Assembly: GCF_964355755.1 (NCBI RefSeq)
Contig: NC_092677.1
Location: 14,220,601 to 14,284,600 of the forward strand
DNA length: 64,000 nucleotides
Direction: 5' to 3'
DNA from: Antedon mediterranea
Lineage: Eukaryota > Echinodermata > Crinoidea > Comatulida > Antedonidae
In this document: positions 4,034-8,335 of the stretch, piece after piece
Layout: every line of letters begins with the position of its first letter
How positions within the stretch are numbered: the first letter of the stretch is position 1
Translations under genes and position numbers: made by a program
Notes under the pieces: generated by a model
Database searches by the model: none
Told to the model about the DNA's origin: nothing
Seen by the model: only the letters and a program-made list of their open reading frames with translations

Positions 4034-4567
4034 CAGAAAGAGGGGAGAATGGCGCCCCGGGAGGCAGAGCTAATTGTCCATACATAATATGGGCTTCCGT
4101 TATAGAATTTTCCATATTAGATATGGAGGGCGCAATATTGTGCACAAGTAATTCATTAATGATAAATTCAGTCGTCTGTCTTAAATTTCACAATATGTTC
4201 TAATCTTTTTATTTTACTTTTGAATTTAACTGTTCTACTGGACAGTGCATTGAGATGTTTTAATCAATTAAATAAAAGATGTGTTTAGAGTAAAATGTCC
4301 GCCATCTTATGTTCTATTGCCCACTGCCGTTGCCATGGTTTAATACTATACTTCTACTCAAGTTTGAAGGTGAGAATCGCATAAAGCTTGGTTCAAACTA
4401 GGGTCTCAGTGGTAACCAGGCTTTAAAGGGGTAGTGGTGGGGAATCAACATTGTAGAAATTATTTTAGTAAAGGTATAATATCAATGATAATTACATTAT
4501 TAAGAACATTGGCATGTATATATATATATAAATCAATTGCACATATATCTTTATATATATATATGTT

Positions 4568-7447
4568 ATGGTGTTGAAAAGATCACACCATCATCCTGAA
4601 CATGAACAAGTCATTCATAAGTTATGCCCTTCTTCAATTTATCTTCAATTTATCTTCAATTTATCTTCAATTTATCTGGATAACCATACATCGAAAGATT
4701 TCCAGAATGTAGTCGGTGAGTGTTATACGTACCTATTTACATCAACCAAAAAATTCTCGCATTATGATTATAATCTTCATCGGAACCCCAGACAGCTTGC
4801 ATGTAGAACTTTAATTATCTGCTTACTATGGTGTGGTGACATCGAATCCAATCCTGGACCAGCGAATGTACCTGTATCAAACAATTGTTGTGGTAAATGT
4901 CAACGGCGCGTCACTACCAGAAGCAGAGCCATATCGTGTGATGAGTGTAATAAGTGGACTCATATAAAGTGTACTGATGGTTTCATGACGCCCAAAAGAT
5001 ACAAGTACATTGTAAACAACAATACTGAATTTGATTATGTATGCGTGGAATGCAGCTGGAAACATCTCCCATTTGATTCCTGTGGAAATCATAACGATGA
5101 CATAGGATTAAGAACACCACCCCCATTATTTAATTATAACGTCGCTCCTGAAGACTTCATGCGGTTTAAACAGAAAGGAATACACATTCTACACTTAAAT
5201 ACAAGATCAATGATCCCCAAACTACTGGAACTGCGCGATATTGCATATAAAAGTAAAGCTGGCATTATCTCCATTAGCGAAACATGGATTGATGATTCGG
5301 TATCTGACAACGAAATTAAAATTGAAGGTTACTCAGTTCTACGAAGAGATCGCGACCGCAAAGGCGGTGGCGTATGTACGTATATAAGGGATGACATCGC
5401 GTTTAACCGGCGTTCAGATATTGAATCCGACGAAGCTGAAGTACTTTGGATTGAACTGATCCTGCCTAAAACCAAACCCATTATAATTGGAACATGTTAC
5501 AGACCACCAAAGCAAACGAACTTTCTAACTCTGTTTGAAAATATGTTATCTAAAATTGGAATGGACAGTGAATTAATTGTTGTTGGCGATTTTAATATAT
5601 GTACTTTAACAAAGTCATCTTTATTGAATAGCTATAATCAAATTCTAAGTATGTTTAGTTTAAGTAACAAAGTAACTGAACCAACTAGGATATGCCCTAC
5701 AGTTGCTTCATGCCTCGATCATATATTATGTAATAATGAGAATAAGATAAGCCAATCGGGTACAATCGCAACAGGTCTAAGCGATCACTTAATGACATTT
5801 TGTACACGGAAAACTATTAAACTTAAGTTCAATGGACATAAAAATGTATATATCAGATCACTAAAAAACTATACCGTTGATCAATTTAGAAACATACTAA
5901 TAGATATCGATTGGTCAGTAGTTACCTCTATCGGAGATGTAAATGAAGCTCTGTATAAATTTAATGCATTACTTTTGGCTGCTATTGATTCCATTGCCCC
6001 CCTTAAAAACATTAGGATGAAACAAAGAACGGAACCATGGTTAACTAGAGAAATATTACAAGACATTGAAACCAGAGATAAATTATTAAATATGTATAAT
6101 AAAAACAAGAATAATACCGACTTATTAATACAATTTCGCAAACTAAGAAATAAAATACAGCGTGATATAAATAAAGCTAAATCAAATCATTTGTTAAACA
6201 AGGCTGAAGAAAATAAAAATAACCCTAAAAAATTATGGAAAATGTTTAAAGGTCTAGGCTATAGTAATACATCTAAGGATAGTGCTAAAACGGTTATTGA
6301 CCTGCCCAATGGTACTAAATGTTTTGACCCAGCCAAAATTGCTTCTTGCTTCAACGAATATTTTACTACTATTGCAGCCAATTTGGTCAGTAAACTTCCA
6401 TCCCCTAAGAATGTGTATGACTGTACGTCGTCCAAACTTAAGGATTTCTATAGAACCGTTAGTGGCAATAACTTTATGCTCAACTCAGTGGACGAAGACT
6501 TTATATATAGTGAATTAAACAAACTCAATGCGACAAAAAGCACGGGTGTCGATAAGATACCTCCCCGCTTCATAAAAGATGGGGCTGAAATTCTAAAAGT
6601 TCCCATTACCTACATAATTAATTTATCAATTAGTACCAGTACAGTCCCAGAAGACATGAAAAAGGCCAAGGTCATACCTCTTTATAAAAAAGGTAGTAGA
6701 ACCGATATTGGAAACTATCGCCCTATAAGTATACTCAGTACAATGTCTAAAATTTTAGAGAAGGCTGTTTTTATTCAAATCGAAAAATACCTTACTGAAA
6801 ACAACGTATTGTATAAATATCAATCTGGATTTCGAGCTGCCTTCTCTACTGACACATGTTTGATAGACTTAGTTGATTCCCTTAAAACCCAAACTTCTAA
6901 GGGAAATTTCTCGGGTATGGTGTTGGTCGATTTAAAGAAGGCATTTGACACTGTAGATCATGACATTTTATGTAATAAGCTTAAATTAATGGGTATTGGA
7001 TCTATTGAATGGTTCAAATCTTACTTATCAATAAGAAAGCAAATAGTAACTGTTGATGATCATTGCTCTCAATCTTGTACTGTTACATGCGGGGTTCCTC
7101 AAGGAAGTATCCTTGGACCCCTTTTGTTCTTATGTTTTGTTAATGACATGGTAACTTGTATTGATCCTGATTGTAAACTCCTTCTATACGCTGATGACAG
7201 TGCAATTGTTTATTCACACAGAAATCCAGATATTATTTCTAAGAAGCTAGGGTCAACACTAGACTCCTTGTGTGATTGGCTTGTAGACAATAAGTTAACA
7301 ATTAACCTGGATAAAACTGAGTGTATACTATTTGGTTCTAAGAGAAAAACTAAAAATGTTAACAATTTTAATGTCTCAACAAATGGTAACAATATCAACA
7401 CTAGTAATTGTGTCAAGTATCTGGGTATTGAAATAGATCAAATTTAA
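4568..7447 (+). CDS. LINE ORF: 2A peptide, PHD finger, APE endonuclease, reverse transcriptase
   Basis: 959 codons. Residues 91-98 read DIESNPGP, preceded by a hydrophobic stretch and CG. This is the 2A ribosome-skipping motif, with the break expected between G97 and P98. A PHD-like finger follows (C108, C111, C124, C127, H132, C135, C159, C162). The APE endonuclease domain begins near residue 210, with SETW (237-240), VGDFN (339-343) and SDH (405-407). The RT domain shows the FDTVDH block, a GVPQGSILGP block and the catalytic YADD at 874-877. The frame ends early in a TAA at 7445 because of a frameshift. Near the N terminus the 11-bp unit CTTCAATTTAT is repeated about four times (4630-4679), which makes the exact upstream start uncertain. 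Protein made from this copy would lack the C-terminal region. Confidence 0.92.
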   Translation: MVLKRSHHHPEHEQVIHKLCPSSIYLQFIFNLSSIYLDNHTSKDFQNVVGECYTYLFTSTKKFSHYDYNLHRNPRQLACRTLIICLLWCGDIESNPGPANVPVSNNCCGKCQRRVTTRSRAISCDECNKWTHIKCTDGFMTPKRYKYIVNNNTEFDYVCVECSWKHLPFDSCGNHNDDIGLRTPPPLFNYNVAPEDFMRFKQKGIHILHLNTRSMIPKLLELRDIAYKSKAGIISISETWIDDSVSDNEIKIEGYSVLRRDRDRKGGGVCTYIRDDIAFNRRSDIESDEAEVLWIELILPKTKPIIIGTCYRPPKQTNFLTLFENMLSKIGMDSELIVVGDFNICTLTKSSLLNSYNQILSMFSLSNKVTEPTRICPTVASCLDHILCNNENKISQSGTIATGLSDHLMTFCTRKTIKLKFNGHKNVYIRSLKNYTVDQFRNILIDIDWSVVTSIGDVNEALYKFNALLLAAIDSIAPLKNIRMKQRTEPWLTREILQDIETRDKLLNMYNKNKNNTDLLIQFRKLRNKIQRDINKAKSNHLLNKAEENKNNPKKLWKMFKGLGYSNTSKDSAKTVIDLPNGTKCFDPAKIASCFNEYFTTIAANLVSKLPSPKNVYDCTSSKLKDFYRTVSGNNFMLNSVDEDFIYSELNKLNATKSTGVDKIPPRFIKDGAEILKVPITYIINLSISTSTVPEDMKKAKVIPLYKKGSRTDIGNYRPISILSTMSKILEKAVFIQIEKYLTENNVLYKYQSGFRAAFSTDTCLIDLVDSLKTQTSKGNFSGMVLVDLKKAFDTVDHDILCNKLKLMGIGSIEWFKSYLSIRKQIVTVDDHCSQSCTVTCGVPQGSILGPLLFLCFVNDMVTCIDPDCKLLLYADDSAIVYSHRNPDIISKKLGSTLDSLCDWLVDNKLTINLDKTECILFGSKRKTKNVNNFNVSTNGNNINTSNCVKYLGIEIDQI

Positions 7448-8025
7448 CGTGTTCTGAATATGCATGTAAAACCATTAAGAAAATTAATAATAGGCTTAAG
7501 TTTATGTACCGCCAACGTAAGATACTAAGTTGTAAGAATCGTAAACTATTATGCTCTGCTCTCATCCAATGTGTTTTTGATTATGCTGCATCTTCTTGGT
7601 TCTGTGGAACCAGTAAAGCTATCCAAAGAAAACTACAAATTGCTCAAAACAAAATGGTTAGACTCATAAAAGGAGTTGAACCCAGAAGACATATAGGTGC
7701 TGATCAATTAGACGATTATGGATTGTTAAATGTAAAATATCGAGTAAAGTTCTTGCAAATTAGCCAAGTTCATAAAATATTTATGGGCAGAAGTGCTTCA
7801 TACCTAAACGAAAACTTTCGTAGAGTTAATAACTTACATGGTCACTTCACTCGTGGTAGTAAACTCAATTTTGTTGTACCTAAAGTCCAAGGCATAGAAT
7901 GTAATACGTTCTATTTTAATGCAATCAGAGAATGGAATAACCTTCCTGACTATATTAAACAAATTTCCAACACATCTAAATTTAAAACTGAATTGAAACA
8001 ATATTACAAAATTAAACATAGATAA
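7441..8025 (+). pseudogene. C-terminal part of the LINE reverse transcriptase, out of frame
   Basis: Continuation of the LINE ORF in another frame, open for about 194 codons from 7441 to the TAA ending at 8025. The first in-frame ATG is at 7504. It contains the conserved C-terminal region of CR1/L2 RT proteins (YASSSWFCG-like block, QIAQNKMVRLI, then FYFNAIREWNNLP). The break lies in a short A/T run at about 7438-7445 and looks like a single-base indel. The fragment has no independent start signal and is probably not translated separately. Confidence 0.88.
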
Positions 8026-8335
8026 ATTATTATTGTGCCATTATATCAGATGTTTTGCTTATATGCTTATATATTTATGAACCCCGTCTTATAATGTTTG
8101 TTTTGTTAAAATTATAATTACTATCTTTTTAGGGACCACATTGGAATTAAGTTGTTTTACTTTAAACGACTTTATGTGTTTTCCCGTGCATCGTCAGACT
8201 TCATTAATCCCGCCATTTTTATTTGCTTTTTTGATGTACATGTATATTAATATTTAAGGTGATTTTATATTTTATTGATGTATTTTTTAATGTTATTTAT
8301 TGAGATGCCAAATAAATGAAAGAAAGAAAGAAAGG

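Follow-up and report, generated by a model that had tools for sequence, protein, structure and literature searches.

The DNA analysed here (the window) is a stretch of 64,000 nucleotides from the crinoid Antedon mediterranea (contig NC_092677.1, positions 14,220,601 to 14,284,600 of the forward strand). The window is AT-rich and contains, on the plus strand, a 5'-truncated copy of a long interspersed nuclear element (LINE) of about 3.8 kb (4560..8334, both ends approximate), which extends from within the leader coding sequence to a (GAAA)n tail. A 959-codon open reading frame (ORF) that opens at an internal Met (4568..7447, +), and on which the residue numbers for this copy are based, carries the 2A/StopGo core DIESNPGP ahead of a PHD finger, an APE endonuclease, and a reverse transcriptase (RT). 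As judged by family resemblance and selection, DIESNPGP is very probably a bona fide StopGo site with ribosome skipping. The LINE family to which it belongs is CR1-like, has a single ORF, and was active recently; the copy in the window descends from it in truncated form and with a broken frame. The ORF of this copy is terminated by a frameshift near 7440 (stop at 7447), and coding goes on in another frame to 8025; this remaining C-terminal part of the ORF (7504..8025, +) has no Pfam match at 0.001. The two halves of the LINE are the only two ORFs of at least 150 codons in the window (1-64000), and an Rfam scan of the 64 kb gave no family at threshold. The label CR1-like fits the element in its domain order and (GAAA)n 3' end only, and the clade name CR1/L2 is our presumption from these same two features.

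In the translated ORF, DIESNPGP occupies residues 91-98 (4838..4861, +), as given in a first, sequence-only reading of this DNA, and agrees in frame with the 2A/StopGo core (D/G/C/N)(V/I)ExNPGP. The hydrophobic tract RTLIICLLW (residues 80-88) and CG (residues 89-90; together 4805..4837, +) adjoin the core directly upstream, where the window reads LIICLLWCG, as in the StopGo context that is rich in Leu and has (A/S/C)G before the Asp at 2A position p12. The skip is predicted between Gly (4856-4858) and Pro (4859-4861). Pfam places a PHD finger at residues 108-162 (PF00628, 4889..5053, +; 7.3e-5, and at 23.2 bits slightly under the curated cut-off of 24), Exo_endo_phos, the APE endonuclease domain, at residues 212-407 (PF03372, 5201..5788, +; 1.8e-10), and RVT_1, the RT domain, at residues 707-956 (PF00078, 6686..7435, +; 2.4e-36). 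With APE and RT in one ORF and the 2A sequence upstream of them, the domain matches support the earlier description of a 2A sequence in an APE-type LINE ahead of PHD, APE, and RT. That the principle was already known also holds according to citing papers, in which in-frame 2A sequences are attributed to APE-type LINEs (Odon 2013) and to the trypanosome L1Tc (Heras et al. 2006) (as cited in PMC11512398 and PMC12846837); they are also mentioned in PMC4981915. StopGo in APE-type LINEs is already in print, and what may be new is the variant cores and the leaders described below. Among the open-literature papers listed, no title or abstract opening mentions signal-like leaders in LINE StopGo ORFs or cores with Ser or Ala at p14; Rao 2025, said to be a profile hidden Markov model survey of viral and cellular 2A, may contain them.

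A 661-base query covering the leader and 2A has 11 matches in the genome, including the window. One of them (L011) covers query positions 556-661 only, and the other 10, namely the window and loci L002-L010, span the motif. All 10 keep ICLLWCGDIESNPGP, and copies lacking NPGP, which had been named as a refutation of the 2A claim, were looked for among them and none was found. Seven copies (L002-L008) have a common 5' end near locus position 833-855, and in L003 this end lies 628 bp upstream of the ATG that opens MAGSMNGIFLALSLYVMVLKRSHHH, in frame with the leader. In full-length copies, the leader begins with MAGSMNGIFLALSLYVMVLK, 16 residues upstream of the Met from which the sequence-only reading counted, and is 102 residues long (103 with Pro). 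Because the seven copies with a full 5' end have this earlier in-frame ATG, the Met at 4568 is internal. Homology of the window copy to the others begins at about 4560, inside the leader codons, and the released leader of about 97 residues once ascribed to this copy is not supported, as the copy is truncated and lacks the family start codon. The 11-bp repeat noticed in the same leader exists, with four units of TTCAATTTATC in the window copy (4633..4676, +) against one in each of the nine other copies, but the change of frame attributed to it does not occur here, as the excess of 33 bp stays in frame. Between the 5' end and the leader frame, no stretch of 70 or more open codons was found in seven copies (L002-L006, L008, and L010), and there is thus no sign of an ORF1 in them. 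In two other copies the frame stays open over 1192 codons from stop to stop, and L002 and L003 are 99.9% identical across 968 aligned bases of the 5' part; these intact frames and near-identical copies indicate that the family moved recently. At the 3' end, the (GAAA)n tail of the window copy is common to two of three other copies fetched, with flanks that diverge beyond the repeat, while the stretch fetched for the third (L101) did not reach the element end. The family thus occurs as dispersed copies, with 5' truncation in the window copy and a 3' end that this copy shares with two others, which is the mark of a non-LTR (long terminal repeat) element.

Beyond this family, the DNA pattern for D(V/I/M)ExNPGP occurs at 97 sites in the genome (49 plus, 48 minus), against none for the reversed pattern, and Gly precedes the core (p11) at 94 of the 97. 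A further 31 sites were sampled so as to represent most of the distinct 26-base cores once, with three that lack the Gly. LINE coding for APE, RT, or an ORF1-like protein was found in the same 3.8 kb at 30 of them (tblastn, 1e-4), and at the remaining site (L038) the start of an APE domain was recognised by eye. At L027 and L042, RT is the only LINE coding found, which makes the link between LINE and 2A looser there. No host gene carrying 2A was seen among the 31 sampled sites. Two positions outside the search patterns also agree with the known StopGo context, with its Leu-rich (A/S/C)G motifs (Li 2026, PMC12846837): across 41 sampled loci, which are not all independent, p7 is Leu, Ile, or Val in every case and p10 is Ala, Cys, or Ser in 35. 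A YYxN-like motif is present upstream of 2A in 20 of these loci. The 2A sequence is retained among families whose sampled APE domains are only about 27-33% identical to that of the window.

The core was also approached from the APE domain downstream of it, by searching the genome with the window APE; 150 of 1487 candidates were scored, so that the counts are lower bounds. Of these, 118 matches starting at query residue 1-4 were tabulated and scored for 2A-like sites within 700 bp upstream. All nine relatives with at least 90% identity, the window included, have the Glu core, and a core is present in 42 of 58 relatives with 41-76% identity, now mostly with another residue at p14 (Ser 25, His 9, Glu 4, Ala 3, Gln 1). 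When the 16 coreless relatives of this band were read, 12 proved to have lost the 2A position, their point of truncation or rearrangement lying downstream of it, L087 starts inside the core, and three have decayed cores (GDISPNLGP in L086, GGVSLNPGP in L094, and a frame-broken one in L096); no copy with a recognisable leader and no recognisable core was seen among the 58. The suggestion that copies lack the motif was accordingly rejected, as every motif-spanning copy of the window family keeps the core and the coreless relatives of this band have lost the 2A position, start inside the core, or carry it decayed. Among 20 families hand-picked as lacking D(V/I)ExNPGP and read upstream of APE, non-Glu cores were found in eight (GDVSLNPGP, GDISPNPGP, GDVHPCPGP, GDISSNPGP, GDVHSNPGP, GDIHTNPGP, GDIHPHPGP, and GDVSPNPGP) and no core was seen in 12. 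Taking L043-L048, L057, and L061 together with the genome-wide sites described next, LINE cores without Glu have Ser, His, Ala, or Asp in its place, and rarely Gln and others, and GDIHPHPGP and GDVHPCPGP are double variants.

Genome-wide, GD(V/I/M)xxNPGP occurs at 176 sites, with none for the reversed control, and p14 is Glu at 94 and another residue at 82. A p14 codon starting with C or T accounts for 70 of these (37 His, 30 Ser, 2 Gln, and 1 Cys); there are 12 further non-Glu sites, the 10 listed among them being Ala (6), Asp (2), Lys (1), and Gly (1). The 30 sites with Ser comprise four main cores. When p16 is left free, His at p14 is found at 57 sites (reversed control 0), with Asn at p16 in 37 and, by hand count, His (13), Cys (4), Glu (2), or Arg (1) in the other 20. 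The Lys in L080, Gly in L081, and Cys in L082, all in short-framed copies, may be the result of decay.

Codon differences among the eight variant families found through APE point to selection on the core. At six core codons (p11, p12, and p16-p19), 28 pairwise comparisons gave 103 synonymous and 13 non-synonymous differences, where the pairs are not independent and the 12 coreless families are outside the count. All 13 non-synonymous differences are at p16, the sole one of the six codons with a varying residue, whereas the 20 codons upstream of the core in the same families have 44 synonymous and 487 non-synonymous differences. By these counts, the remainder of the core is under purifying selection in the eight non-Glu families.

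The history of the p14 residue was traced on trees of APE sequences. A first tree held 40 sequences, 12 of 52 loci having been dropped for fewer than 110 aligned APE residues, and on it the Glu label needs nine changes, seven of them forced by well-supported forks. This tree included one-off residues (Lys in L080, Gln in L079) and single short-framed Glu copies (e.g., L026) that may reflect decay, and we prefer the figure from a strict tree of 28 rows from which both were removed. There, Glu versus non-Glu needs six changes, four of them forced. The Glu label is clustered on the strict tree (4 of 500 shuffles were as low), yet it forms one clade in 0 of 200 bootstrap trees, and the four forced exchanges exclude a single loss of Glu. 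In both trees, two well-supported sister pairs join unlike residues, namely His in L065 and Ser in L066 (100/99), and Glu in L025 and His in L069 (100/99 and 99/97). The window family, itself with Glu, falls together with the Ser families L063 and L070 and the His family L067 (98/97 in the first tree, 94/90 in the strict one); the Glu copy L026 is also within this group in the first tree (98/97). On the strict set, the core Glu was thus exchanged at least four times.

The leaders upstream of the core tend to start with a hydrophobic segment. For each leader, the highest 13-residue Kyte-Doolittle mean within the first 35 residues was compared with shuffles of the same leader; 21 of 52 loci were kept, as leaders shorter than 70 residues or without Met were dropped. 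The median N-terminal peak is 2.45, against 1.05 for the shuffles, and the window-family leader, judged by hydropathy alone, peaks at 2.47, where its shuffles average 0.67 (p=0.002). In the window family, about 75 residues separate the hydrophobic start from the 2A core, and the two are therefore not one short peptide.

Taken together with published systems, these features suggest the following scheme. In full-length copies, translation would start at MAGSMNGIFLALSLYVMVLK, a hydrophobic, signal- or anchor-like sequence, and the ribosome would make the 102-residue leader until its peptidyl-transferase centre is brought to a halt by the nascent LIICLLWCGDIESNPG chain. At this point the leader would be freed at Gly and synthesis would restart at Pro, giving a free PHD-APE-RT protein, while a minor unskipped fraction would remain fused to the leader. 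Meanwhile, the leader may draw the translating LINE RNA to the membrane of the endoplasmic reticulum (ER), with StopGo keeping the enzyme off the secretory path. A signal-bearing leader released at NPG and a free PHD-APE-RT protein are inferred from three sets of findings: the StopGo nascent chain is described as inactivating the peptidyl-transferase centre, with the upstream protein released at Gly (PMC12846837); a short 2A signal sequence is reported either to be released or to direct its protein into the exocytic pathway (Roulston 2016, PMC4981915); and Ty1 retrotransposon RNA is reported to be translated at the ER via the signal recognition particle (Doh et al. 2014, PMC3945221). Ty1 offers a precedent for co-translational ER targeting of retrotransposon RNA, although it is an LTR element in which Gag, not a 2A-released leader, is concerned (PMC3945221). 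That the leader targets the ER is speculative and falls a little short of an even chance. The combined proposal, in which Glu has been repeatedly exchanged for Ser, His, Ala, or Asp under selection, cores with Ser or Ala at p14 are active StopGo sites, and a conserved signal leader tethers the RNA to the ER before its release, is put forward tentatively, as slightly less probable again.

The leader might instead have no membrane role, its hydrophobic start being a by-product of the composition near the start and StopGo serving to trim an N-terminal extension. This explanation is compatible with StopGo and, though unlikely, survives best among the alternatives. It would account for the variable middle of the leaders, for the lack of a Pfam match in any of the four leaders searched, and for the AT-rich window, and the 2A-less control starts described below are weak; however, the N-terminal peak exceeds shuffles of the same leader at p<0.05 in 18 of 21 cases and exceeds the rest of the leader in 20 of 21.

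Dual targeting by design, also compatible with StopGo, appears somewhat less probable than a leader without membrane function. Skipping would be partial, and the fused fraction of PHD-APE-RT would enter the secretory path, as with the 2A of sea-urchin NLR proteins. The signal-like start of the leader speaks for it, and a short 2A signal is reported to behave in this way with about 80% recoding (Roulston 2016, PMC4981915). The sea-urchin NLR genes are alike in having a hydrophobic signal and StopGo at the N terminus of the ORF, but there signal and 2A coincide in a single peptide of 26 residues, carried by an immune receptor (PMC4981915), whereas in the long-leader LINEs about 50-120 residues separate the signal-like start from the 2A that follows it. 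An endonuclease and RT would, moreover, have no evident use in the secretory path, and four upstream motifs that were assayed, one of them rich in Leu, are reported as active at 92.7% to almost 100% (Li 2026, PMC12846837).

Far less probable is a reading of DIESNPGP as an inherited remnant or an ordinary protein motif, such as a processing or membrane segment, with the leader and enzyme staying fused and no skipping. The non-canonical p14 residues in many families could mean a relaxed need for skipping. On the other hand, selection falls on just those residues by which StopGo is defined, their codons changing synonymously, while the neighbouring p15 is free, and the core is kept across families whose APE domains have diverged to the low identities given above. 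In addition, skipping in reticulocyte lysate is reported to exceed 95% for the variants with His at p14 and with His at p16, both present here (PMC12846837). A chance match in random AT-rich DNA has a negligible probability and was rejected, as the base composition of the window predicts 2e-5 occurrences per 64 kb and 0.11 in the 354-Mb genome, against the 97 sites observed and none for the reversed control.

Several observations weigh against StopGo in these LINEs or against an ER-directed leader. Among APE relatives with 30-39% identity, a core was found in 3 of 51 and none was shown in 48, which indicates that a LINE of this general kind can dispense with it. The 628-bp 5' untranslated region of L003 has eight upstream ATGs, opening short upstream ORFs of 9-34 codons each before the leader start, and the start codon in use is accordingly uncertain. 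Aligning the genomic copies for purifying selection, as had been proposed, confirmed that the motif is kept in all 10, but the 15 2A codons of the window family, with no non-synonymous difference and one synonymous singleton, vary too little for a selection test. Its leader is little constrained, with 24 non-synonymous to 10 synonymous singletons at 208 to 56 sites; the within-family APE count was not used because broken copies were misaligned. As for the hydrophobic start, the L023 leader is an exception among the 21 in lacking one, and significance is not reached by the peaks of L013 (p=0.11) or L078 (p=0.07). Low peaks (-0.46 to 0.80) were obtained for all seven control ORF starts, taken from related families that lack 2A, but these controls are weak, being Met-to-APE stretches of 8-98 residues whose true starts may lie elsewhere, and five of the 12 control families have no Met before APE.

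Compared with viral StopGo variants, the LINE cores are alike in having His at p14 or p16, the Leu-rich (A/S/C)G context, and Asp at p12 with Gly at p11 (Li 2026, PMC12846837). They differ at p14, which in the virus data is described as almost exclusively Glu, and no variant with Ser or Ala at this position, as in the LINEs, was noticed among those described for the viruses (PMC12846837). If the combined proposal is true, the LINEs of this genome amount to a set of naturally occurring StopGo mutants. Should the cores with Ser and Ala skip, the accepted core motif is drawn too narrowly, and many StopGo sites of cellular origin have gone unnoticed in searches with D(V/I)ExNPGP; such a search passes over 82 of the 176 GD(V/I/M)xxNPGP sites here. 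If the leaders are signal sequences, StopGo would allow use of the ER for targeting or for a membrane product without sending the RT there.

A different arrangement is present at L012 (1001-1729, +), L018, and L024, where 2A lies ahead of a coiled-coil, ORF1-like protein and APE/RT are farther downstream. The leaders, core included, are 45 residues in L012 and 65 in L018, and the L012 type is the nearest to the sea-urchin NLR arrangement. The L012 protein has no Pfam match over the curated cut-off and no PDB match; ORF1-like is a label that we presume by eye. Seven copies match the entire ORF1-like query of this type at 99-100%. Directly upstream of the full-length copy in L003, a tandem array (L003:2786-3569, minus strand, locus coordinates) has three frames that each encode a repeating peptide similar to NMGVTRIWVSPEYGCHQ. 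At L025, the frame stays open for 334 codons upstream of 2A, as though the LINE had inserted in frame, and this upstream frame resembles what we take to be a Ty3/gypsy integrase region.

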